Shown here in pieces: positions 26,744 to 38,413 of a stretch of DNA of 64,000 nucleotides. The DNA is taken from positions 372,698 through 436,697 of the forward strand of contig NZ_JAEAMR010000007.1 in the NCBI RefSeq assembly GCF_015999245.1, given 5' to 3'. The stretch is from Streptomyces sp. AV19. GTDB lineage: Bacteria > Actinomycetota > Actinomycetes > Streptomycetales > Streptomycetaceae. A program made the position numbers and the translations under genes. Positions within the stretch are counted from its first letter, which is position 1; each line of letters begins with the position of its first letter. The notes beneath the pieces are model-generated. The model worked only from the letters and a program-made list of their open reading frames with translations, was not told the DNA's origin and did no database searches.

Positions 26744-26861
26744 GTTTTTCACCAAGATCCACACGATTTCCCGGTCCGCTGCACGGTGATTCCCCACGAG
26801 TTCCGCGATGTCCGCGGAGGCGAGAGCGCGCCGTGTGGCGCGCAGGAGAGGGGGAGGGGCC

Positions 26862-27968
26862 GTGACCGGACCCGTCACAGCAGAGAGGAAGGCCGCCGCC
26901 GGGGCGAGGCAGGGCGGACCGTTGATCATCACCGAGGACGAGGCCGTGCTCGACGACCTGCTGCGGCTGTGCGCGGCGGCCGGAGCGCTGCCCGAGGTGG
27001 CCCAGGGGGCGGCCGTCCGGGCCGAGCAGTGGTCCGGGGCCCCGCTGGTCCTGGTGGGCGACGACTGCGCCGACCGCCTGCCCGGCGCCCCGCACCGCGA
27101 GGGGGTGGTGCTCGTCGGCCGGGATCCCGACGACCCCGGTGTCTGGCGGCGCGCCTTCCGCGTCGGTGCCCGCAGCGTGGCGGTGCTGCCCGACGGCGAG
27201 GGCTGGCTGGTCGACCGGATCGCCGACTCGGTGGAGGGGACGGAGGGGCCCGCCCTCACCGTGGGCGTGACCGGCGGGCGGGGCGGTGCCGGAGCCAGCA
27301 CCTTGGCCTGCGCCCTCGCGGTGGGGGCGGCCCGGGCCGGGCGGCGCACGATGCTGATCGACGCCGACCCGCTGGGCGGCGGGCTCGACGTCCTGCTCGG
27401 AGCCGAGCGGGTCGAGGGGCTGCGGTGGCCCGCGTTCGCCGGCTCCCGGGGGCGGGTTGCCTGCCGTGCGCTGGAGGAGGCGCTGCCCGAACCGCACTCC
27501 CTGCGTCTGCTGAGCTGGGACCGCGGTGATCGCGCGGCGGTTCCTCCCGAGGCCGTGCGCGCGGTGCTGGCCGCCGCCCGTCGGAGGGGCGGGGTGGTGG
27601 TCGTCGATCTGCCGCGCGCTGCCGACGACGCGGCCGCCGAGGTGCTCGGGCAGTTGGATCTGGGCCTGCTGGTGGTGCCCTCCGAGCTGAGGGCCGTCGC
27701 CGCCGCGCACCAAGTCGCCCGGTCCGTCGGCATGATGATGGGCGACCTGCGGATGGTGGTCCGCGGGCCGTGCGCGCCCGGGCTCGACGGCGAGGAGATC
27801 GCCCGTCTCCTCTCCCTGCCCCTCGCCGGGGAGGTGCCGGAGGATGCCGGCCTGCCACAGGCGCTGGCCGCGGGCCGGCCACCGGGCGCGGACCGGGGCC
27901 CGTTGACCGCCTTCTGCGCAGAGTTCTGGGCCCGGGTGCTGCCCGACGGCGAGGGCGTGGCGGCATGA
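26862..27968 (+). CDS. ssd: Septum-site-determining/CpaE-like ATPase
   Basis: A 368-residue MinD/CpaE-related protein at the head of the tad operon. Residues ~15-115 look like an atypical receiver-like domain (LIITEDEAVLDDLLRLC). The ATPase domain starts at VTGGRGGAGAST (near 134), a deviant Walker A in which the usual signature Lys is Arg. TMLIDADPLGGGLDVLLG and VVVVDLPRAADD follow as switch and Walker B regions. CpaE/TadZ proteins place the pilus machine at a cell pole, and the mycobacterial relative Ssd affects septation. GTG 26862 with GGGGAGGGG just upstream is preferred to the longer ATG reading at 26808. The stop overlaps the tadA ATG. Confidence 0.88.
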   Translation: MTGPVTAERKAAAGARQGGPLIITEDEAVLDDLLRLCAAAGALPEVAQGAAVRAEQWSGAPLVLVGDDCADRLPGAPHREGVVLVGRDPDDPGVWRRAFRVGARSVAVLPDGEGWLVDRIADSVEGTEGPALTVGVTGGRGGAGASTLACALAVGAARAGRRTMLIDADPLGGGLDVLLGAERVEGLRWPAFAGSRGRVACRALEEALPEPHSLRLLSWDRGDRAAVPPEAVRAVLAAARRRGGVVVVDLPRAADDAAAEVLGQLDLGLLVVPSELRAVAAAHQVARSVGMMMGDLRMVVRGPCAPGLDGEEIARLLSLPLAGEVPEDAGLPQALAAGRPPGADRGPLTAFCAEFWARVLPDGEGVAA

Positions 27969-29122
27969 GCACCGCGCTGCTGGACGCCGTGCGCCTGCGG
28001 CTGGCGCGGACGGGTGCGGAGCCGACACCCGCCCGGGTCGCCGAGGCCCTGCGGCAGGAGGGAAGGCTCCTCGGCGACGCGGAGGTGCTGGGCATCGTCT
28101 CCCGGCTGCGCTCCGAACTGGTCGGCAGCGGCCCGTTGGAGCCGCTGCTGGCCGAACCGGAGGTCACCGACGTCCTCGTCACCGCGCCCGACCAGGTGTG
28201 GGTGGACCGTGGAGCGGGCCTCGAGCGCGCGGACGTGTCCTTCCCCGACGCCGCGGCGGTGCGCCGGCTCGCCCAGCGGCTCGCCGCGATCGCCGGCCGC
28301 CGCCTGGACGACGCCCGCCCCTGGGTGGACGCGCGCCTTCCCGACGGCACCCGGCTCCACGCCGTACTGCCGCCGGTGGCCGTCGGATCGGCCTGCCTCT
28401 CGCTGCGTGTGGTGCGGCCGAGGGCCTTCACCCTGGACGAACTGGCGGCGGCGGGAACGGTGCCGCCCGGCGGGCAGGGGCTGCTCCGCTCCGTGCTGGA
28501 CGCCCGGCTCTCGTTCGTGATCAGTGGTGGGACCGGTTCGGGGAAGACCACCCTTCTGTCGAGCCTGCTGGGCCTGGTCGCTCACGACGAACGGATCGTC
28601 CTCGCCGAGGACTCGGCCGAACTGCGCCCGGACCACCCGCACGTGGTGCGGCTGGAGACCCGTCCCGCGAACCAGGAGGGTACCGGTTTGGTCACCCTGC
28701 GGGACTTGGTCCGCCAGGCCCTGCGGATGCGCCCGGACCGGCTGGTGGTCGGGGAGGTGCGCGGGCCTGAAGTGACCGATCTCCTGGCCGCGTTGAACAC
28801 GGGGCACGAGGGTGGTTGCGGCACCGTGCACGCCAACGCCGCGGCCGACGTCCCGGCCCGGCTGGAGGCCCTCGGCTCCACGGCGGGGCTCGACCGGGCC
28901 GCGCTGCACAGCCAGTTGGCGGCGGCCCTGTCGGTGGTCATCCATCTCGTGCGCGATCGTGGTGGCCGTCGGCGCGTCGCCGAAGTGCACGTGCTGGACC
29001 GGGACCGTGCCGGGTTCGTGACCACCGTGCCGGCCGCCGTCCGGGGCCCGGAGGGCTTCGAACGGGCATCCGGCTGGGACCGGCTCGCGGCGCTGTGTGC
29101 GCGGGGCGGGGGTGCGACATGA
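27965..29122 (+). CDS. tadA: TadA/CpaF pilus assembly ATPase
   Basis: A 385-residue secretion ATPase of the VirB11/CpaF class. An N-terminal helical domain (1-70) is followed by the N-terminal ATPase subdomain. Walker A is [14 protein letters not shown] (near 182-195), the Asp box is [22 protein letters not shown], and Walker B is [14 protein letters not shown], with the His box [13 protein letters not shown]. It should be a cytosolic hexamer powering assembly of a Flp-type pilus. The ATG overlaps the ssd stop, and its own stop overlaps the tadB start, showing tight coupling in an operon now cut by a mobile element downstream. Confidence 0.93.
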
Positions 29123-30009
29123 CCGTTCCGATGGCGGTGCCGCAGACGCTGCTGGCCGCGACCGCGCTGCTCGGGGTCGCGGCCGCCACCCGGCCGTCGG
29201 TGCGGCGGGGGCGGGAACTGCGCCGGGCAAGAGCGCTGTTCGCGGACGGGAGCGCGACCGGCGTCCGTTTCCCGCTCCTTCCGGCACGGCTCCGGGAGGC
29301 CGCCGGGCGGCTGCTCGTCGCGGCGCGGGGCCGGCGTGAGCTCTGGTGCCTTCCGGCCGGGTGTGCCGTCTGTCTGCTGGGCGGGTCGTTCCTGCCCCTG
29401 CTGATGGCGGGGGCGGCCGTTCCGCTGATGAGGCGCTGGCTGGCCGCCCGCCTGCGACGGCGTGAGCGCGAACGGCGCGAGGACGCCGTGATCGAGCTGT
29501 GTGGTGCCGTCGCGGGTGACCTGCGGGCGGGCCGACAGCCCGGCGAGGCGCTGGTGGCGGCGCCGGGCGACGCCCTGGGGGCGTCGTGGCCCGCCGTCAC
29601 GGCGGCCGCGCGGTTCGGCGGCGACGTGCCGGCGGCGCTGCGGGAGGCCGGCCTGCAGCCCGGGGCCGAGGGGCTGACCGGCGTGGCCGCCTGCTGGCAG
29701 GTCGCCGTCGACGGCGGGGCGGGCCTGGCCGCCGGGCTCGAACGGGTGGGGGCCGCGCTCGCCGCCGAGCGGGATCAACGTGAGGATCTGCATGCTCAGT
29801 TGGCGGGCACGCGGTCGACCGCCGTGATGCTCGCCCTGCTCCCGGTCCTCGCTCTCCTGATGGGCAGCGCAATGGGCGCCGATCCACTGCGCGTGCTGTT
29901 CCACACCCCGGCGGGCCTCGGCTGCCTCGCCCTGGGCGGGCTCCTCGAATACGCGGGGCTGCTCTGGACGCGGCGCATCGTGTGCGCGGCCGGCGGGAGG
30001 GAGGAGTGA
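29119..30009 (+). CDS. TadB-like type II/IV secretion membrane platform protein
   Basis: A 296-residue member of the GspF/TadB family. Membrane segments lie near residues 5-25, 70-105 and at the C-terminus (250-285). The cytoplasmic part carries [14 protein letters not shown] and [27 protein letters not shown], the F-domain repeat pattern. It forms the inner-membrane platform with TadC that the TadA ATPase drives. Start and stop overlap the neighbouring genes by 4 bp (ATGA) and 1 bp (TGATG), so it is translated as part of the operon. Confidence 0.88.
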
Positions 30010-30806
30010 TGGACGGGCGGTACGTGGGCGGCCCGGAAATGGCTGTCGTGCTGGCTGTTGTCGCCTCCTGCGCGGTGGCCGCCCTGCGGGGCGCCCGCAG
30101 GACGAGGGCGGTGCGGCGCAGGGCCGCGAGGCTGTGGGGCGGTGGCCCGCCGTCCGGCGCGTCGGCCCGGATGTGCGCTCGTACGGCGGGACTCGCCGCG
30201 GCCCGTGAAGGACTGCCCGCCGCTGCGGCGGCCGTCCTCGGAATCGTCCTGGTCGGCGGTCCCGTGGGCTGGGCCGTGGGGGCTCTCGCCGCTTCGGGGG
30301 TGTGGTGGTGGAGACGTCGGGCGGGGCGTGCGGCGGCCGGGGAGCCGGAGGTTCCTGCCGAGGAGGTGGCGCGCCAACTGCCGCTGGCGGCCGATCTGAT
30401 GGCCGCCTGCCTGGCGGCGGGGGCCGGGCCCCGGGAAGCGGCCGAAGCGGTCGGCGGTTCGCTCGGCGGTCCCGTCGGCGACCGGCTGGCCAGGGCGGCT
30501 GCCGAGGTGCGGCTCGGCGCGGAGCCGGCCGTTGCCTGGGAGCGACTGGCCGCGCTCCCGGGGGCCCGAGGGCTGGCGCTGTGCCTGGAGAGGGCCCAGG
30601 CGACGGGGGTGCCCGCCGTGGATCCCATGGCGCGGCTCGCCGTCACGCTGCGCGCCGTGCAGAGCCGGTCGGCCGGCATACGGGCCCGCCGCGCGGGCGT
30701 CGTGGCCACGGCCCCGCTGGGGTTGTGCTTCCTGCCCGCATTCCTGGCCGTCGGGGTCGTACCGATGGTGATCGGCCTGGCGAGCGGACTGCTGCGGGTC
30801 CCGTAG
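30009..30806 (+). CDS. TadC-like type II/IV secretion membrane platform protein
   Basis: A 265-residue GspF/TadC-family protein with membrane segments near residues 10-28, 65-105 and 225-260. The F-domain is marked by [25 protein letters not shown] and [39 protein letters not shown]. It pairs with TadB in the pilus platform. The start shares one base with the tadB stop (TGATG). The pilin-like DUF4244 gene follows after 26 bp and is disrupted by the integrated element. Confidence 0.88.
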
Positions 30807-30832: not shown

Positions 30833-31042
30833 ATGAGGACGCTGCTCGGGCAACCGGTGCCCGGGCGCGAGGAGATGAGGAGAGAAGTGATGGTCATGCA
30901 GTGGTGGACGAGGGCCAAGTGCCGTGCGGTGCAAGCCGGGGAGGCCGGAATGTCGACGGCCGAGTACGCGGTGGGGATCGCGGCCGCCTGCGCGCTGGCG
31001 GCGGTGCTCTACAAGGTCGAATCTGTCAAGGAGAGACAGTAA
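30833..31042 (+). pseudogene. Flp-pilin-like DUF4244 gene, 5' part, truncated by the element
   Basis: GGAGG 6 nt before ATG 30833 sets the start. The product reads MRTLLGQPVPGREE..., then AGEAG/MSTAEYAVG, a Gly followed by four residues, Glu and Tyr. That is the prepilin-peptidase motif of Flp pilins. A single hydrophobic helix (AVGIAAACALAAVLYK) follows. At 31016-31017 the host sequence ends and eight element-derived codons (VESVKERQ) lead to a TAA, giving 69 residues. The missing end is at 37503-37574. The normal protein would continue VTSGAVSAAL...LHAAF. A truncated 30-residue mature pilin could still be made, but its function is doubtful. Confidence 0.85.
31002..31031 (+). other. attL of the serine-integrase element
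   Basis: Host arm ...gctctacaag joins the element arm cgaatctgtc... at the dinucleotide GT (31016-31017). It was inferred by matching the broken pilin gene across the element. The same GT occurs at 37503-37504. Joining the outer arms gives ctctacaag-GT-ggtcacgag, an attB with partial dyad symmetry (gctc/gagc). Confidence 0.75.
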
Positions 31043-31288
31043 GAAGCCCCGCCCGCATGCCACGGGGGCAGCACACGAGCGGGGCCATTCTCCCTCACCG
31101 CCGAAGCGGCACCCCAGCGAAGGGGCGGACCGGGGCGAGAGCCTGAACGCGTCCGCTCAGTCTGGGCACGTCTGCCCACGCTCAAGGCTTGTCCGGTCGG
31201 GGGAACCGTCCGTACGCAGCGCCGGGGATCACCACTTCGCCCAACCCTGCGTCCGGGGCCTTACGGCGGGGGCAGAGCCCCGCTCGTC
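31043..31288. other. Left end of the element, non-coding
   Basis: About 245 bp between attL and the first small gene hold no supported frame. Inverted repeats GCCCCGC (31036-31042) and GCGGGGC (31069-31075) could terminate leftward transcription of the element before it enters the host operon. Confidence 0.5.
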
Positions 31289-31522
31289 TCAGTGCTGCCG
31301 CTGCTCCGCGCAGAAACTGCACGGGAACGGGCATGGCGGGTGATCAGCCCCGCGAGGGATGTAGACGACGCCAGAGCGAACGTTCAGCGCCCCGCCGTAC
31401 TGGGTCCACCAGCCCTCGGGAGAGTCCGCGTACGGGCCGTCAGGGTCGTCTATGAGGCTCACCAGCTCGGGGGCCGGTAACGAGCCGCACGTGCGCCTGT
31501 GGAGCCTCGCCGGGGCGCTCAT
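31289..31522 (-). CDS. Small element protein, unknown (77 aa)
   Basis: A 77-residue protein starting MSAPARLHRRTCGSLPAPELVSLIDD and ending PPCPFPCSFCAEQRQH, with a Cys cluster (CPFPCSFC) that could bind zinc or iron. GWWTQYGGALNVRSGVVYIPRG suggests a small beta-rich core. I recognise no family. The ATG overlaps the stop of the preceding gene (ATGA), so it is the last of three coupled genes. It is a candidate for a small regulatory or directionality factor, but no motif supports that. Confidence 0.65.
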   Translation of the reverse strand: MSAPARLHRRTCGSLPAPELVSLIDDPDGPYADSPEGWWTQYGGALNVRSGVVYIPRGADHPPCPFPCSFCAEQRQH

Positions 31523-31794
31523 CGGCCCGCCCGTTCCTGTCTGGCGAGACGGCCCGCCAGGACGGCACCCGGGGGCGTGCCCACGATGATCGCGTGCCCG
31601 AACGTCTGCCAGAAGTGAAGGTGTCCGGTGTCGCGAGTGTGGTTGAACGTCCACGCCTCGGCTTCCGCCTGGCTGTCCTTGACGATGAAGCGTTCGCCGC
31701 ATCCCTCTTCGGTGCAGAACACGGCGAACTCAGCGGCCGTGGCCGGGTCCTGGATCGTCGTCCAGTCATCGAACCAGTGACGGCTACGGCTCAC
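31519..31794 (-). CDS. Small element protein, DUF7848-like (91 aa)
   Basis: A 91-residue protein, GTG start at 31794 inside the previous stop. It has FAVFCTEEGCGERFIVKDSQAEAEAWTFNHTRDTGHLHFWQTFGHAI: a Cys pair followed by a His-rich helical part, a pattern I associate with small proteins of Streptomyces integrative elements (DUF7848 type). The Cys/His layout suggests one zinc site. Function unknown. It is the middle gene of an overlapping three-gene set. Confidence 0.7.
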   Translation of the reverse strand: MSRSRHWFDDWTTIQDPATAAEFAVFCTEEGCGERFIVKDSQAEAEAWTFNHTRDTGHLHFWQTFGHAIIVGTPPGAVLAGRLARQERAGR

Positions 31795-31985
31795 TTGGCA
31801 GCACCACCCGTGGCGCACTCCGTGTGCCAGTAGACGACCACCGAGGACGCGGACGACCGCTCGTTGTCCACTCGCCGACAGGCGGTGTCAGTAGGGATGG
31901 GTTTCCGGCACTTCCCGCACGTCTGCCCCGCCGGGGCGTAGGTCACGTACTCGTACGGGTGCCCGGTCTCGCGCGTTCTCGCCAT
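31791..31985 (-). CDS. Small zinc-ribbon-like element protein (64 aa)
   Basis: A 64-residue protein. CGKCRKPI and a later WHTEC give a CxxC...HxxxC arrangement typical of single zinc knuckles. It is the first gene of the three-gene overlapping set (GTGA then ATGA overlaps) and has a G-rich ribosome-binding site upstream. It may bind DNA or a protein partner; no family is recognised. Confidence 0.68.
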   Translation of the reverse strand: MARTRETGHPYEYVTYAPAGQTCGKCRKPIPTDTACRRVDNERSSASSVVVYWHTECATGGAAK

Positions 31986-32061
31986 CGTCGCTGTCCCCTC
32001 GCGTAGGTCGCGGAGGACGGTAAGCGGAACGGGGACTCACGAGGGACCCAAACTGTCCCCC

Positions 32062-33285
32062 TCAGCTCGCTAGTACCTGTACCTCCTCGGCAAGTGCCAT
32101 CGCATCCGACTTCAGCGGCCCACGGGCTTCCTTCGCCAGGTCGTAGACCAGCCCCCGGGCAACCGGCGTGAACCGCACCGTCTCCGGCGACGCCTCCACA
32201 GCTCGCCTCATCCAGTGCAGCGCCCCGGCATGGTCCTTCCGCTGCTTCTGCGCGCGCCCAAGCTCGATCAGCACCCGCGAACGGCGCTCGACGCTCGGGA
32301 CCGTTTCCAGGTCCACCGTTTCGGCTCGGCTCATCGCTGTCCCGGGCGTCCGGAGGTCCGTGGCGACGCTGACGGCGTGGATGTCCGCGTTACCCCTGCC
32401 GAACACCGTCCATGAATGCGCGTAGCCAGAGGGCAGCCGGTTCGCGGTACGGTCGGCCTCATCCCAGTGCCGCCACGCGTTGCCCTCAGCGCCCTCACGA
32501 GCGTGCGTAATGGCCGCATGGAGGTGAAGGGCCCCATAGACGCCCCGGAGGTCGTCAGGGCCCGTTTCAAGGTGCGGTTTGATGGCCTCGGCGGCCTCAG
32601 TGACGACGCGGATCGCCTCTTCGGCATAGCCGGACTCGCGGAGCCCGTTCGCCCACGTCCAGGACGCCCCAGCGAGGCACAGCGGGCTGTCGGCTTCTTG
32701 CGCGGCGTTCCTGCCCCGGTCAGCGATCAACCAGTACAGCTCTGGCTCAACAGCGAATGCGGCGGCCTGCTGCGCCAGGTGGTAGACGTCGGCCAGGACG
32801 GCGTACGCCGTCCGACGCTCCGGCCCGTCGAGACGGCGTGGCAGCGCGGAGGCATCCCGGATGAGGCCGGGGAGGAGGCTGGAGACCTCCGACCGCTGGA
32901 AGCGGGACGAGTGCCACAGCCGCCATGCCTCAGCCACACGCCCTCGGAGCACGTCCACGCTCGGCGGCTCATCCGGGACGGCGAACAGCGGGCCCCGCAA
33001 GGCGTCACGGAGGTCAGCGACACCGGGCAGCACAAGCCGCGCGGACGGGTTGACCGGGGAGGGCACGGGATCACCCGTCAAGACGGTCAGGTCGTTGATC
33101 TTCAGCGCGGTTGCGAGCCTGACAAGGAGGGTGTGGTCACGTAGCTGTCGCTCGCCGGACTCGACCTTCTTCAACCAGTCGGGGCCACGGCCAACTAGTC
33201 CAGCAAGCACAGGCCGCGTCATCCCGCGCCGTTCTCGGTAGAACCGGACACGCTCCCCGGTCGTCATCCCGGCCAGGTCTGTCAT
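32062..33285 (-). CDS. XRE-family regulator with TPR-like C-terminus
   Basis: A 407-residue protein. An N-terminal helix-turn-helix (GERVRFYRERRGMTRPVLAGLVGRGPDWLKKVESGERQLRDHTLLVRLATAL, about 10-60) is joined to a long helical region with repeated tetratricopeptide-like units (residues ~140-400). This is the common actinomycete layout of peptide- or signal-responsive regulators and of element repressors. In this element it is the only obvious DNA-binding regulator, so control of integrase and cargo genes is a fair inference. An inverted repeat lies about 75-100 bp upstream. Confidence 0.88.
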   Translation of the reverse strand: MTDLAGMTTGERVRFYRERRGMTRPVLAGLVGRGPDWLKKVESGERQLRDHTLLVRLATALKINDLTVLTGDPVPSPVNPSARLVLPGVADLRDALRGPLFAVPDEPPSVDVLRGRVAEAWRLWHSSRFQRSEVSSLLPGLIRDASALPRRLDGPERRTAYAVLADVYHLAQQAAAFAVEPELYWLIADRGRNAAQEADSPLCLAGASWTWANGLRESGYAEEAIRVVTEAAEAIKPHLETGPDDLRGVYGALHLHAAITHAREGAEGNAWRHWDEADRTANRLPSGYAHSWTVFGRGNADIHAVSVATDLRTPGTAMSRAETVDLETVPSVERRSRVLIELGRAQKQRKDHAGALHWMRRAVEASPETVRFTPVARGLVYDLAKEARGPLKSDAMALAEEVQVLAS

Positions 33286-33358
33286 AGCCGCTCCTTGTAC
33301 GAAGTCAAGCCCTTCTGGCCAGCGTACGCCGTGTGGTCAGCGCGAACGAGTCGTGTTC

Positions 33359-33383
33359 GGTGGTTAGTTGACGCCCAACCACC
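33359..33383. promoter_or_regulatory. Inverted repeat upstream of the XRE regulator
   Basis: GGTGGTT (33359-33365) and AACCACC (33377-33383) form a dyad with an 11-nt spacer, 74-98 bp upstream of the regulator start. It could be its operator. The surrounding 33384-33699 holds no supported gene. Confidence 0.45.
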
Positions 33384-33699
33384 CGCGCGCGGAGTTCTTC
33401 TCTCACTCAAAACCCGGAGACCCGTACATGGGCGATGCTGCTATCCCCAGCCGGTAAGGGGGAAGTCGCTCAGGGGGCACTCCCCACCCCTTAACCCGCC
33501 GTTCCGACCCGCTACCAAGGCGTTCACAGGGCTTATCTCAGGCGCAGCGAGACACGTTGCAGCAGGTCAAGGCGTGTTTCGGGTCGAAAAAACGGCGTCA
33601 CACTCAGCGCGCGTACGTGCAGCTTGAGCCGGGATCGCCAGACGGGCTCAGGACTGAACTTTGGCAACGCCCCGCCCTTCCCCGTGCCGACACGGCGAA

Positions 33700-33728
33700 A
33701 GACCGCCTGTCGGGCGGACAGACGGTCT
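33700..33728 (-). terminator. Terminator of the small recombinase gene
   Basis: AGACCG-C-CTGTC and GACAG-A-CGGTCT pair into an 11-bp stem with one mismatch and a 5-nt loop, 24 bp past the recombinase stop. Confidence 0.65.
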
Positions 33729-33751
33729 CTCAGGTCTTAGGCGCAGCAGGG

Positions 33752-34330
33752 CTACGACGCTTCGCCCAACGCCCGGTACAGCGTCGCACGGGACACCTCA
33801 AGAGCCTTGGCTATCGCCGTGACGCTCTCACCCTTCGCACGGCGCGCCTTGGCGGCAGCGAGCTTGTCAGCGTCCATCACTGTCGGCCGTCCGCCCGTGC
33901 GCCCCTGCGCCCTGGCAGCGTCCAGCCCCGCCCGGGTCCGGTCCTTGATCAGGGCCCGCTCAAACTCCGCCATCGCGCCCACCACCTGAAGCATCAACCG
34001 CCCGTCCGCTGTGTTCGGGTCGATACTCGCCAGCGCCCCCGTGAGCACCTTGAACCCCACCCCCCTTTCGGCAAGAGCGTCCACCATCGTCACAAGGTCA
34101 ATCAGCGACCGGGCGAACCGGTCCAGCTTCCAGACGCAGAGCGTGTCACCGGGGCGTAGGTAGTCCAGCGCGGCAGTCAGTTCCGGGCGGTCCGTGTTCT
34201 TCCCGCTCGCCTTGTCCGTGAAGATCCGGGCGCAGCCAACTTCCGACAGGGCGTCAAGCTGCAACTGGGCTTCCTGGTCGTCGGTGGAGACTCGGGCGTA
34301 ACCGATGAGGTGTCCGGTGTTCGTGGTCAT
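33752..34330 (-). CDS. Small serine recombinase (resolvase/invertase type)
   Basis: A 192-residue protein of the Tn3/gamma-delta resolvase class. YARVSTDDQ holds the catalytic Ser (near 14). TDKASGKNTDRPEL, DTLCVWKLDRFARS and a C-terminal helix-turn-helix (GESVTAIAKALEVSRATLYRAL) complete the family layout, and the length is normal. It should act on res- or inversion-type sites rather than att sites. GTCTCA inverted repeats lie just upstream. Within the element it is a second recombinase besides the integrase, so it may resolve dimers, control the element or be left from a transposon. Confidence 0.93.
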   Translation of the reverse strand: MTTNTGHLIGYARVSTDDQEAQLQLDALSEVGCARIFTDKASGKNTDRPELTAALDYLRPGDTLCVWKLDRFARSLIDLVTMVDALAERGVGFKVLTGALASIDPNTADGRLMLQVVGAMAEFERALIKDRTRAGLDAARAQGRTGGRPTVMDADKLAAAKARRAKGESVTAIAKALEVSRATLYRALGEAS

Positions 34331-34339
34331 GACGAGACT

Positions 34340-34460
34340 GTCTCACAACTCATCTCAGAACATCAAGGGTTTTTGGCAGGTTGTGAGACGGGTTTTGAAC
34401 GCGAATCCGGCACCTTGCGGGGCATGGTGACGGTGTCTCACATACCTTGGTTTCTGAGAC
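34340..34460. repeat. GTCTCA inverted repeats, res-like site
   Basis: GTCTCACAAC (34340-34349) and GTTGTGAGAC (34380-34389) are a perfect 10-bp dyad. GTCTCA (34435-34440) and TGAGAC (34455-34460) form a second dyad. A further TCTCA lies at 34353-34357. They sit within 130 bp of the recombinase start, where resolvase sites normally occur. The rest of 34461-34662 shows nothing. Confidence 0.65.
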
Positions 34461-34662
34461 GCCCGTCGGTGATCACTCACAGCGACAGGCGCCCTCCGAA
34501 ACGGTCCGATGAGCCACGCGAAAGATTCCGCTCACTGCCGATCAGCGCAGCGAGGGGAAGGGGGCACCCGCCTGCCCCTGACTGACGCAACAACCCGTAC
34601 AGGTAGCGAGGTGCTATACGGCTCCGGTCTTGGCGTCAGGGTCAGCGGGTCACCCCCCAGGG

Positions 34663-35415
34663 TCAGCGCGCCACCAAATGCGGCGGAGACCACTCGTCCA
34701 GCAACTGATCCTTCTTCGACGAATTGCAGACCACGCACACCACGCGCATGTTGGCAGGCGTCGAGAGGCCGCCCCGCGATATGGGGCGCAGGTGATCAAT
34801 CACGCCCCCTTCGGGTAGCGGAGCGGAGCAGTGGAAGCACCCTGCATCCCCGTGTGCCTCACGTATCCGGCGCTGAAGCGTCACCCGGCGCGCCACCGTG
34901 CGCTGCACCGCCTGACACGAACTGCACACGCCATCACGGAACTTGAGCACCACGGGGGTACCGCAGCGCCGACACGGCACCGGCTCAGGCTTGGTCCGGG
35001 CACGCTTACGGATGTACTCAGCGGCGCGACTGCATTCCTCCGAGCAGTACAAGCGACTTCGGTTCCTTGAAAGTCCAACAGGGTTGAAGCACTTCGGACC
35101 CTGGCAAGGTTTCTGGGCTGCCTCTTCACGCTCCCGCTGCAACTGCTTGCGGCGCTCCTCCTTGCGCGACTCCTCCACCTCTTCGGCGCAGCGCACGCAG
35201 TACACCGCCCACGCAGCACGGCCATGCGGCTCATCGCAGCGATGGCAGCGGGGAGCAGGAGCGGCAGCACGCACCGCCTCACGCGCCCGCTTGGCGGCAA
35301 TCTGCAACCGGGCTGACTCCACACACAGCTGCGCCCCGCATGTCCTGCGATTGGGACGCTGGTGCGGGGCACCACACTCCGAACAGGTGACGCGCGACTC
35401 TTCAAGGGCCGTCAA
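34663..35415 (-). CDS. HNH endonuclease with multiple zinc fingers
   Basis: A 250-residue protein. Four Cys-pair modules (CSECGAPHQ, CHRCDEP..CVRC, CQGPKCFNPVG..YCSEEC, CRRCGTP..CSSC) precede an HNH nuclease domain: CFHC, VIDHLRPISRGGLSTPANMRVVC, then CVVCNSSKKDQ. The DH pair and downstream Asn/His-type ligands fit a metal-dependent DNA nuclease. It is rich in basic coiled helices between the fingers. The start is uncertain: TTG 35415 with a GAGAGGTG stretch upstream is the best candidate, since upstream codons look non-coding. Possible roles are element spread, packaging-like cleavage or defence; nothing decides. Confidence 0.82.
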   Translation of the reverse strand: MTALEESRVTCSECGAPHQRPNRRTCGAQLCVESARLQIAAKRAREAVRAAAPAPRCHRCDEPHGRAAWAVYCVRCAEEVEESRKEERRKQLQREREEAAQKPCQGPKCFNPVGLSRNRSRLYCSEECSRAAEYIRKRARTKPEPVPCRRCGTPVVLKFRDGVCSSCQAVQRTVARRVTLQRRIREAHGDAGCFHCSAPLPEGGVIDHLRPISRGGLSTPANMRVVCVVCNSSKKDQLLDEWSPPHLVAR

Positions 35416-35727
35416 GCGAGACCCCCACCTCTCTTTTTGTTGATCTTGAAACGCTGCGGCAAGGGCACCACAGGCCAGTAACCGCAAGGGGAAGGGCTGG
35501 TCTCCGGACGGGGCGCAAAGAAGCAAAGCAGGCGCATACAGACCCACCCCCCTCAACGTCGATTCGCCACCTCCCCGACAAAACCTCAACCGAAGTTCGA
35601 CACCCCCCGACCCTAGGCGCAGCCACTGACAGTGCACCCAGAAGTCGCAGAAGCACCCTAGAACGCACGAACGGCCCGCTACCAGGGAATTCCCCAGCAA
35701 CGGGCCGTGACGGACACTCAGGCGTGT
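35416..35727. other. Gap between the HNH and integrase genes
   Basis: About 310 bp without a supported gene. It contains the integrase terminator (35671-35708) and, presumably, the HNH gene's promoter in 35420-35640. Confidence 0.5.
35671..35708 (-). terminator. Terminator of the integrase gene
   Basis: ACGGCCCG (35671-35678) and CGGGCCGT (35701-35708) pair across a 22-nt loop that contains an inner GGAATTCC palindrome, 20 bp past the integrase stop. Confidence 0.6.
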
Positions 35728-37479
35728 CTACGCTGACTCTTGTGCGTCTTCCTGCTTGGCGGGCTGCGCCCACGTGATGGATACGCGCTTTTCCGTGTCA
35801 GACGCGCGCCCGTGGGCGGTTGCCTTCCCCAGCTCTACGCGATCGATGAACAGGGCCAGGAACTCACGACGCCGCGCCAAATCCCATGCAGTCCACGGCG
35901 AACCCTCCCCAATCGGGTCGCCGTCGTTATCGCCGCACCATTGCCCGATAGGCAGTACGACCGTGGACGTGGCGCGCTCCGCCAACAGCGTCAATGCTCC
36001 CTCTAGCCTCTCCTCCTCCTTGGCCAATCGCTCCTCCGACTCCATGAACATCCGCCTACCGGTCGTCGTGCGGTACGCGCCCTCTGCGCGGTCCTTGTAG
36101 AGCGTGGCCAGCGACTCCCGGGTGTACTCAAGCGCTGCTGTCAGCTCTGCGCGCTCAGCTTCCACGCCGCTCGTGTCCTGCTGATGCGCAAACCGGCGGG
36201 AAGCCTCAACTATCAGCTCTTGATCCTCCGCGCTCTGCGCCTCAAAGTCATCCGTCATGACTGACAGTCGCGCGAACACTCGCCCTGCAACCACGTTGTC
36301 TACGGTCTGCATGTTCACCGACAGACTCTTGTGACCGTCGATAGTTCCGGCCGGGCGCTTACAGCGGTAATAGCGAATGCCCTTGGTTTCCGAGTGCTGC
36401 ATGGTCGAACCGCACACGGCACAGAACAGAACACCCCAGCCAGTAAGAAGACTTGGACGCTTCGTTTGCTTCACTTCCGGTCGCTTCCTGTTCACGACTT
36501 CCTGTAGCTGGAACCACTCACCCGGCGGGATGATCCCCTCATGAGATCGAACGATCTCCCCCGATGCGTCGCGTTGCGGCTCCCGCTTGCCGCCACCCCC
36601 AACAACCTTGGAGGCAAAACCCGCTAGGCGGGGATCACGCAGCACACGCAGCACCGATCCCGAATGCCACTGCGCCCGTTCATCCTCAAGCGGCGCAGAC
36701 ACGATGTCAGCGCGCTTGCGGCGCCCTTTCAAGCGGTTCCGTCCGGTCTCCCCCATGCTCTCAAGCGAGGTAGGCACCTTCTCTTCGTTGAGCCGCTTGG
36801 CTATCGCTACCGCACTCTTCCCTGCCATGGCGTCGGCCACCATGCCGCGCACGTGCTGCGCCTGTATCAGGTCGGGTACAAGGCGAGTGATTGTCAGCGT
36901 GCCGTCTCCATCCTGCACGGGCACAGTGGTGCGCTCCGACTTGAAGCCGTACGGGGCACTGCCCGTCACGTGCCCGCCCACCAGCCGGACGGCAGCCTGT
37001 GCCCTGAGTATGTGCTGACGCTTGCTCTCGCTCTCCTGCTGCGCGAGACCAGCAATCAGAGCGAAGATTGCCACACCGACCGGCGTAGACGTGTCCAAGA
37101 ACGGCTCATCGACGCTCACCAGTGAAACGCCGTGCCGCTGAAGCTCATCGTTGATCTTCATTGCCTCATAGGCTCCCTGCCGTGTGAGGCGAGACAGGGC
37201 AGGGATTATGACCACGTCGCACTCTTCGCGGCGGACGGCTGCCATAAGGGCTTCAAAGCCGGGGCGGACGATTTTTGGGTCGAAGCCTGAACGGCCGACA
37301 TCTTCGAAGTGCTCAACGAACGTCCAGCCTCGCGAGTCAACCAGGGCGCGCGTCGCCTGACGCTGCCCTTCGGGGGAAGTGCGCGACTCATCTTCACGGG
37401 CTTTGGACTGTCGGCCGTAGGTGAAAGCTCTCACCAGGTCCAGATTACGGATGCTCTTTCCGAGCAGAGGCGGTGTCAT
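35728..37479 (-). CDS. int: Large serine integrase
   Basis: A 583-residue large serine recombinase. The catalytic domain has AFTYGRQSK with the active Ser (near 25), followed by EDVGRSGFDP and the ALSRLTRQG region. The recombinase domain (~190-310) and zinc-ribbon domain (LFCAVCGSTMQHSETKGIRYYRCKR) follow, then a coiled coil (~450-500) and a basic C-terminus. Enzymes of this class recombine attP with attB without host factors and need a directionality factor for excision. The start lies 24 bp from the attR crossover, so attR/attP overlaps its promoter. The target here is the DUF4244 pilin gene. Confidence 0.96.
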   Translation of the reverse strand: MTPPLLGKSIRNLDLVRAFTYGRQSKAREDESRTSPEGQRQATRALVDSRGWTFVEHFEDVGRSGFDPKIVRPGFEALMAAVRREECDVVIIPALSRLTRQGAYEAMKINDELQRHGVSLVSVDEPFLDTSTPVGVAIFALIAGLAQQESESKRQHILRAQAAVRLVGGHVTGSAPYGFKSERTTVPVQDGDGTLTITRLVPDLIQAQHVRGMVADAMAGKSAVAIAKRLNEEKVPTSLESMGETGRNRLKGRRKRADIVSAPLEDERAQWHSGSVLRVLRDPRLAGFASKVVGGGGKREPQRDASGEIVRSHEGIIPPGEWFQLQEVVNRKRPEVKQTKRPSLLTGWGVLFCAVCGSTMQHSETKGIRYYRCKRPAGTIDGHKSLSVNMQTVDNVVAGRVFARLSVMTDDFEAQSAEDQELIVEASRRFAHQQDTSGVEAERAELTAALEYTRESLATLYKDRAEGAYRTTTGRRMFMESEERLAKEEERLEGALTLLAERATSTVVLPIGQWCGDNDGDPIGEGSPWTAWDLARRREFLALFIDRVELGKATAHGRASDTEKRVSITWAQPAKQEDAQESA

Positions 37480-37487
37480 ACCGCCCT

Positions 37488-37519
37488 ACTGAACTGTGCT
37501 CTGTGGTCACGAGCGGAGC
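37488..37519 (+). other. attR of the serine-integrase element
   Basis: Element arm ...gaactgtgctct meets host arm ggtcacgagcgg at GT (37503-37504). The host arm continues in the pilin reading frame to the TGA at 37572. Confidence 0.75.
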
Positions 37520-37574
37520 GGTGAGCGCCGCGCTGCAGGGGCTCATCGAGAAGGGCCTCCATGCGGCGTTCTGA
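37503..37574 (+). pseudogene. DUF4244 pilin gene, displaced 3' part
   Basis: From the GT at 37503 the frame reads V-V-T-S-G-A-V-S-A-A-L, then Q-G-L-I-E-K-G-L-H-A-A-F and TGA. This is the usual C-terminus of DUF4244 pilins. It has no start of its own and is cut off from its 5' part by 6.49 kb. Joined at the GT it is in frame with 30833-31015. Its last 14 bp overlap the TadE start, so in the uninterrupted state tadE would be translationally coupled to the pilin. Confidence 0.85.
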
Positions 37575-37980
37575 CGACGGCCGCCCCGGCAACGACCGTA
37601 CCAGTGAAGGCTGTTCCGGGAACAGCCGCTTCGGAGGTGGTCGTCGCGACCGCGGTCATGTGACCGCCGAGGCCGCCATGGCGCTGCCGACGCTGGTGCT
37701 GTTCGGCATGGCCCTCATCTGGGGGCTGATGGCCGCGTCCGCGCAGATCCAGTGCGTGGACGCGGCGCGGGCCGGGGCGCGGGCCGCGGCCCGTTCGGAC
37801 CCGGTGCCGGTGGCGGTGGAAGCGGCGAGGTCGGCGGCCCCCGCGGGGGCCCGCGTGGCGGTGACGAGGGAGGGAGATCTGGTGAGGGTGCGGGTCGAGG
37901 CACGGGCCGCGGGGCCCGGCCCGCTCGCGGTCCGGCTGAACGGAGAGGCGGTGGCCCTTGCGGAGGACACGGTGGGGTGA
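37561..37980 (+). CDS. TadE-family minor pilin
   Basis: A 139-residue protein. After a polar, Gly/Arg-rich start, GHVTAEAAMALPTLVLFGMALIWGLMAASAQIQCVDAARAGARAAAR shows the TadE pattern: a short prepilin-like segment with conserved Glu and a single membrane helix followed by a periplasmic domain. It is a pseudopilin of the Flp/Tad system. The ATG lies inside the broken pilin gene's end, and promoter access from ssd/tad is lost because of the element. Its expression now depends on transcription from the element end or a local promoter. Confidence 0.87.
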   Translation: MRRSDDGRPGNDRTSEGCSGNSRFGGGRRDRGHVTAEAAMALPTLVLFGMALIWGLMAASAQIQCVDAARAGARAAARSDPVPVAVEAARSAAPAGARVAVTREGDLVRVRVEARAAGPGPLAVRLNGEAVALAEDTVG

Positions 37981-38413
37981 CGGGGGAGGAGGCGACGACG
38001 GGGGCTTCGCCACCGTGTGGACGGCGATCGCCGTCATGGCCTTCTGCGCGGTCTTCGCACTGCTGCTGGCTATGGGCCAGGCGGTGCTCGCCCGGCACCG
38101 GGCGGGCGGCGCGGCCGACCTGGCGGTCCTGGCCGCCGCCGACCACGCCCTCCTCGGCGAGGAGACGGCCTGCGGCTTCGCCCGCCGGGTCGCCGGCGCC
38201 CAGCGGGCGCGGGTGGTGACCTGCGCGGTGCGGGGCGAGATCGCCGAGGTGGCGGCCGAGGCCCGGGCGGGGCCGTATGCCGTACGGGTCCGCTCCCGGG
38301 CGGGGCCGGCCACGGCGGATGTTCCGGCGGTCACGGCGGGTCCGGTGCCGGAGGGTTCCGTGCCGGACGGCGACGGAGCGTCGGGCGCGTCCGGCCCGGA
38401 GGGAGCAGGGTGA
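37958..38413 (+). CDS. Rv3654c-like TadE-type pseudopilin
   Basis: A 151-residue protein with a Gly/Asp-rich start, then GFATVWTAIAVMAFCAVFALLLAMGQAVLARHRAGGAADLAVLAAAD, the hallmark of the TadE-like proteins found next to the actinobacterial helicase locus (Rv3654c type). ETACGFARRVAG has the conserved Cys. The track of codon bias supports a TTG start at 37958, which overlaps the TadE gene by 23 bp, or a GTG at 38015. It is the last gene of the tad cluster and faces the convergent helicase gene. The C-terminus is a disordered Pro/Gly/Ser tail. Confidence 0.82.
   Translation: MRRTRWGDGGGGDDGGFATVWTAIAVMAFCAVFALLLAMGQAVLARHRAGGAADLAVLAAADHALLGEETACGFARRVAGAQRARVVTCAVRGEIAEVAAEARAGPYAVRVRSRAGPATADVPAVTAGPVPEGSVPDGDGASGASGPEGAG

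Follow-up and report, generated by a model that had tools for sequence, protein, structure and literature searches.

A phage-related mini-element, probably inserted by its own large serine integrase, splits a tad pilin gene in Streptomyces sp. AV19

In Streptomyces sp. AV19, a small integrative element separates the two parts of a Flp-type pilin gene belonging to a tad pilus locus. Both lie in a window of 64,000 nucleotides (contig NZ_JAEAMR010000007.1, positions 372,698 to 436,697), which is the whole stretch of DNA that was analysed and to which all coordinates below refer. We conclude, with a probability of about 0.88, that the element entered codon 62 of the pilin gene at a 2-bp GT core and that its own large serine integrase carried out the insertion. 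The most likely reading is that of an ordinary serine-integrase insertion, made by a phage-derived mini-element, which inactivates the pilin and is reversible in principle. A sequence-only reading of the window had proposed a precise serine-integrase insertion at a reconstructable site, and this agrees with the uninterrupted gene found at 29 of 29 loci of relatives and with a phiBT1-like gene order in the reconstructed circle. For its further suggestion that the element switches a host gene we obtained no evidence, and that part stays unproved.

The interrupted open reading frame (ORF, 30833-31042) encodes 69 amino acids, 62 of them common with the joined gene and the last seven foreign. Its match to the DUF4244 family ends at profile position 35 of 54, and the profile matches of the two halves and of their join confirm the earlier placement of the break near 31015-31017 and of the missing C-terminus at 37503-37574. 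Joined at the shared GT, the pilin is 84 amino acids long, ends in AAVLYKVVTSGAVSAALQGLIEKGLHAAF followed by the stop codon, and matches DUF4244 positions 3-53 of 54 with no net indel; the E value is 1.4e-21, the left half by itself giving 3.6e-13. The insertion point falls in codon 62 of the joined frame, counted from 30833, and 22 C-terminal residues are cut off in the inserted state. The protein was assigned to the Flp/Tad pilins on the basis of its DUF4244 domain, its GMSTAEY motif and its position between tadC and tadE, the processing motif of such pilins being given as G/xxxxEY (PMC4322843). A DUF4244 search of the host assembly (7.5 Mb, 111 contigs) yielded just two pieces, covering profile positions 3-35 and 32-53, so that no intact DUF4244 paralogue was found in the assembly.

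In order to compare the joined gene with its counterparts, we searched 61 genomes with the right flank. This gave 30 loci, of which the window is one and the other 29 come from relatives, and no locus in the remaining 31 genomes. The sequence-only reading had proposed looking for the uninterrupted gene in related Streptomyces, and at all 29 loci the pilin gene was in place, uninterrupted, in the same codon register and in keeping with the joined sequence. Across the join the window reads LYKVVT and the relatives LY[KREQ][VI][VIL][TNS], which upholds the proposed restoration of LYK-VV-TSG, and of the 42 bases surrounding the join as many as 38 are identical. An overlap of 14 bp between pilin stop and tadE start is present in the joined gene, as it is in 26 of the 29 relatives, and excision would re-couple tadE through it; one relative has an overlap of 8 bp, and in the two others the script found no tadE start from which to measure. 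It could be argued that truncation and the seven foreign residues leave the pilin functional and that the insertion is nearly neutral, as the cleavage motif and the hydrophobic helix lie upstream of the break. The 22 lost C-terminal residues belong, however, to a section of the gene that all 29 relatives examined have kept, and the overlap with tadE is broken, and we regard a working truncated pilin as very unlikely.

The same comparison bears on a regulated, developmentally timed switch, in which excision would restore the pilin when needed, as with the skin element or the comK prophage. Several observations fit such a switch: the split is exact, both pilin halves match their family with no frameshift or stop, the flanking tad genes match theirs in open frames, and comparable serine-recombinase elements exist, such as yin in yabG (PMC10747680). 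A recent insertion would nevertheless leave the halves equally undecayed, and because the gene is uninterrupted at the loci of all 29 relatives the element is not a maintained partner of the pilin. Furthermore, a comparison of seven element ORFs with Pfam, PHROGs and NCBIfam brought up no recognisable excision factor, and a general promoter scan of the linear window, the sole look for a timing signal, found none. We therefore hold a timed switch to be highly improbable; with the pilin uninterrupted in every relative examined, it is less likely than a recent insertion serving the element.

At the offset that preserves gene length, the two flanks share two dinucleotides near the junction, CT (31007-31008) and GT (31016-31017). 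The GT core yields LYKVVTSG and the CT core LCSVVTSG; the latter was rejected, LCS in place of LYK occurring in none of the 29 relatives. Joining at a 4-bp GGTC match common to the flanks was likewise rejected, as it leaves the gene one codon short of the 29 relatives when read from the sequence. The insertion thus sits at a 2-bp core common to attL and attR, as for large serine integrases. Both flanks rejoin in register, and the exact restoration expected of a gene-switching element is here a property of the reconstructed sequence alone.

The integrase carries all three serine-integrase domains in an open frame of 583 codons. Between its start codon (first base 37479) and the core are 23 bp, a distance of 24 positions, which matches the 24 bp stated earlier. 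Among phages its best match is phiBT1 (36% identity). The stretches that match the element in phiBT1 and related phages precede int on the same strand, separated from it by one or two small genes (the matching stretch in the Sebastisaurus genome is unannotated), and in phiBT1 attP is annotated between the matching stretches and int. It follows that the circular element would read small genes-attP-int, in the same order and on the same strand. The element thus has the order of a phiC31-family integration cassette, whereas no virion or packaging genes were found among the ORFs scanned. Additionally, a weak tblastx similarity (50% over 20 codons, in a linked segment) resumes at the annotated edge of the phiBT1 attP, corresponding to 31043, 26 bp from the core, which gives the element ends some independent support. 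The central dinucleotide of phiBT1 is also GT (PMC3836970). Thus phiBT1 (Lomovskayavirus BT1, phiC31 family) resembles the element in its large serine integrase, its GT core, its gene order and its insertion in a protein-coding gene, and differs from it in that the element is 6.5 kb long, has no recognised virion genes, uses another attB and has an HNH and a resolvase gene of its own.

Several results weigh against the insertion as we read it. Scanning the named genomes for six exact integrase peptides revealed no relative, and the best match among 198 other same-genus genomes reached 53%. A pilin was found at none of the 141 related loci searched (best E 0.03, not a pilin), a set that includes same-genome duplicates and many flanks of just 1.5 kb and excludes the element's own copies (L001, L137, L154); there being no other example at the site, specificity for the pilin is deduced from one insertion. 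At the core itself, several relatives read GTC where the join reads GTG, so that the relatives fix the codon and not the core to each base; GT is taken as the core because a shared dinucleotide is required in addition to the relatives' sequence. The partial dyad symmetry formerly ascribed to attB (gctc/gagc arms) proved weak: the paired arm positions number 7 of 15 or 9 of 20, a score equalled or exceeded at 16-17% of flanking host DNA positions, and arm pairing in the reconstructed attP is at background, with 67-82% of element positions equal or better. This symmetry, not being above chance, was dropped as support for attB. Finally, the general scans of the element ORFs, with no dedicated search among them, brought up no recognisable directionality factor, which qualifies the claim of reversibility: excision is possible in principle, the flanks rejoining exactly, and the small ORFs of the element may be candidates for the missing factor.

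An alignment scan with the integrase returned 56 loci, and IMG/VR 23, the best being 48% identical; a 25-mer of the attP had no match in IMG/VR. The nearest integrase clade is mostly 45-50% identical, though the best segment of a broken copy can reach 61%, and its members have one common host flank (23 loci in the cluster, of which four, L107-L110, are duplicates, hence at least 19 distinct), only one end of each element being readable. This flank, seen in the L052-L069 group, is the 5' end of a small Streptomyces gene coding for VVKINVLTVPAEQ. The expectation that the same integrase clade would occupy the same attB in other strains was accordingly not borne out, the host flank of the closest clade being a different one. 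The VVKINVLTVPAEQ gene product may resemble antibiotic-biosynthesis monooxygenases. One further locus with the same flank, L055, lies outside the cluster, and there the gene appears to hold a further insertion.

Table 1. Features of the tad locus and of the inserted element, in window coordinates.
Feature	Position	Strand	Evidence or remark
CpaE/Ssd-like ATPase, first gene of tad locus considered	26808..27968	+	NCBIfam TIGR03815, E 5e-104
TadA-type secretion ATPase	27770..29122	+	Pfam T2SSE, E 4.1e-67; ORF as listed, real start probably further in
TadB-like protein	28816..30009	+	Pfam T2SSF, E 3.4e-6; ORF as listed, real start probably further in
TadC-like protein	29982..30806	+	Pfam T2SSF, E 9.6e-13
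5' part of DUF4244 Flp-type pilin gene, core included	30833..31017	+	DUF4244 positions 3-35, E 3.6e-13
attL core dinucleotide GT	31016..31017	+	Of two shared dinucleotides, the one matching relatives' sequence
Tail of truncated pilin: last base of codon 62, seven foreign codons, stop	31018..31042	+	Sequence
Integrated element, 6,487 bp counting one GT core copy	31018..37504		Absent from pilin gene in 29/29 relatives' loci
Small gene with relatives in phiC31-family phages, where they precede attP-int	31289..31522	-	63% identity/78 aa Sebastisaurus; 59%/66 aa RemusLoopin
Small DUF7848 ORF	31519..31818	-	Pfam PF25232, E 2.4e-8
64-aa CxxC protein	31791..31985	-	55% identity/43 aa to stretch inside phiBT1 gp25.2 region
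Phage-type helix-turn-helix/tetratricopeptide-repeat (HTH/TPR) regulator	32062..33285	-	phrog_5823 positions 5-403 of 404, E 1.2e-92; 38% identity to phage Chymera protein
Small serine resolvase/invertase	33752..34330	-	Pfam Resolvase and HTH_7
Putative res site, GTGAGAC/GTCTCAC-type repeats upstream of resolvase	34335..34462		Function inferred
HNH endonuclease with several Cys pairs	34663..35409	-	Pfam HNH_5 and HNH
Large serine integrase, 583 aa	35728..37479	-	Resolvase, Recombinase and Zn-ribbon domains; phrog_95 integrase, E 3.6e-82
3' part of pilin gene	37503..37574	+	DUF4244 positions 32-53, below family cut-off alone
attR core dinucleotide GT	37503..37504	+	Join with left flank
tadE; start codon overlaps pilin stop by 14 bp	37561..37980	+	Pfam TadE, E 9.4e-7
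Rv3654c-family TadE-like protein	37958..38413	+	NCBIfam TIGR03816, E 1.1e-23

All element genes named in Table 1 are on the minus strand, and the G+C content is 0.62-0.70 inside the element as compared to about 0.77 outside. The longest ORF at the left end (31289-31702) overlaps the DUF7848 ORF; phage similarity begins near an internal ATG at 31522, which makes the shorter start preferable and suggests that the two genes probably abut. Relatives of the CxxC protein occur at six loci (five distinct) and additionally at L143. Virion, packaging, conjugation and replication families were all absent among the element ORFs scanned, as was any transfer or relaxase gene of the kind that marks an actinomycete integrative and conjugative element or an integrative mobilizable element. 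The AlphaFold model of the HNH protein has a mean pLDDT (predicted local distance difference test) of 61.7, too poor for fold comparison, and PADLOC returned one weak match, to the same protein. Compared with plasmids and phages, the element DNA gave partial matches only (171 and 5 records, none covering 80%); among plasmids the integrase matched one record with at least 80% coverage, at 36% identity, and the HNH protein had no match.

This gene content is open to two other readings. The element might be an immobile relic, a phiC31-family prophage shrunk to its integration end and fixed in place: its phage-like genes are integration-end genes and a phage-type regulator, and no capsid, terminase or replication family was found in the ORFs scanned. 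Yet the frames of integrase, resolvase, HNH protein and regulator are all open, and a one-off relic leaves unexplained the recurrence of the HNH and resolvase genes in five other elements, three of them with very different integrases, which makes a relic possible but doubtful. Alternatively, the element could be a minimal phage satellite, mobilised by a helper, whose resolvase and res site resolve packaged concatemers. Its size is near that of the satellite PICMI115 (6,110 bp), it has phage-like integration genes and a phage-type regulator, no conjugation family was detected in its scanned ORFs and the repeats upstream of the resolvase are partly conserved; PICMIs are indeed packaged as concatemers (PMC10803314). 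On the other hand, the scanned ORFs include no primase, replication or packaging gene, the PICMI genes were not recognised, no helper is known, HNH matches in 30 phage records are partial with none covering 80%, and an IMG/VR pattern scan returned none. A satellite is thus unlikely, and we retain the reading of an ordinary insertion by a phage-derived mini-element.

We then considered the relatives of the HNH and resolvase genes. The HNH protein was found in 5 of 392 same-genus genomes searched, that of the window included, and at one further named locus, L064; L065 has no more than a fragment of it. HNH and resolvase genes occur together in five other Streptomyces elements (L142, L143, L144, L145, which is the same as L069, and L064), with identities of 75-80% for the HNH protein and 65-89% for the resolvase; the contig of L064 ends within the resolvase gene. 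The large integrases next to this pair in L142, L143 and L144 have just 25-29% identity to that of the window. The adjoining host genes, named by adjacency, differ as well: a thioredoxin/NHL gene, an XPB-type helicase gene and DUF3817 genes. Repeat blocks like CCCGTCTCAnAAC and GTTnTGAGAC align upstream of the resolvase across all six elements (the window, L142, L143, L144, L145 and L064), exact GTGAGAC/GTCTCAC heptamers numbering seven in the window and one or two in each of the five others; these repeats would constitute a res site. It is to be noted that the element in L142 (6656-8467 and 13408-14139) interrupts the thioredoxin/NHL gene, with two versions of the N-terminus, one on each side; this gene appears to stay readable because the element seems to supply a replacement 5' end. 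Among the open-access papers listed we found no description of such an HNH-resolvase family. More speculatively, a family of streptomycete mini-elements might keep the HNH gene and the resolvase/res module and swap integrases to colonise different genes, some members repairing the gene they enter, as in L142, whereas here the Tad pilus would be shut off, which would favour the element by hindering DNA uptake or phages that use the pilus, and pilus-positive cells would arise by rare excision. We consider this whole scenario distinctly unlikely.

A second tad locus lies about 750 kb away (L181, G000:C79:1153001-1168000, and L182). It has a T2SSE ATPase, matches to TadE and a Flp-like pilin scoring below the PF04964 cut-off, and its neighbours are presumably CpaB- and CpaE-like. 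Because this locus carries a Flp-like pilin, loss of all pili does not follow from the insertion, and pili of another kind may persist. The insertion might also have been selected, by blocking DNA uptake or a pilus-using phage and so protecting the element, as proposed for the comYC prophages. Prophages repeatedly interrupt comYC (PMC4774983), and in the actinobacterium Micrococcus luteus loss of Flp pili accompanies loss of transformation (PMC4322843). The host has a ComEC-family match, such matches being widespread (10 of 14 control genomes). Against selection, we know of no report of transformation in the host, the site holds a single insertion and the second tad locus with its Flp-like pilin remains; we judge it quite unlikely.

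The ordinary insertion that we favour would have proceeded as follows. The ancestor was probably a small genes-attP-int cassette of a phiC31-family phage, joined by the HNH gene and the resolvase gene with its res-like site, and the integrase would have recombined the circular element with the attB in the pilin gene. As the core and the integrase start are just 23 bp apart, the promoter region of the integrase must change upon integration: upstream would be host DNA in the integrated state and the other end of the element in the circle, and integrase expression is probably tied to the circular state. A promoter-like pair (TTGACA-N17-TTCAGT) precedes int in the circular form only, with 9 of 12 matches, a score reached in 1.5% of 2000 shuffles; its second hexamer is poor and the pair was not relied on. 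As the pilin loses 22 residues and tadE its overlapping upstream gene, the tad system is most likely left with no normal pilus. Excision by the integrase together with a directionality factor would rebuild the gene exactly, and we expect such events to be rare, and of use to the element rather than to its host.

Known systems share parts of this arrangement. In the streptococcal comYC prophages, as described in PMC4774983, a mobile element likewise splits the major pilin gene of a pilus system; those are prophages in a competence pilin gene, whereas here a small element sits in a Tad/Flp-type pilin gene of unassigned role. The skin and yin elements similarly have a serine recombinase gene at one end of a gene-interrupting element, but their excision and a circle have been shown (PMC10747680), whereas the present element is known from its sequence only. 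The PICMI satellites are comparable in having about 6 kb, an integrase and few genes; PICMI115 of Vibrio carries int, alpA and a primase gene (PMC10803314), and with no alpA or primase counterpart recognised here a satellite life is considered as a rival reading only. Among the open-access papers listed we found no report of an element in a streptomycete tad pilin gene. Within the searches made, what is new is the combination of this target with a mini-element that has a phage-like integration cassette and a shared HNH-resolvase module.

A Tad/Flp-type pilin gene hereby joins the pilus genes split by mobile elements, of which comYC is the documented case that we found. The locus also lends itself to a simple polymerase chain reaction assay for reactivation of a streptomycete tad system. 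The small phage-derived family with interchangeable integrases may be of use as well, since each member might supply Streptomyces genetics with a new integrase and its att site.

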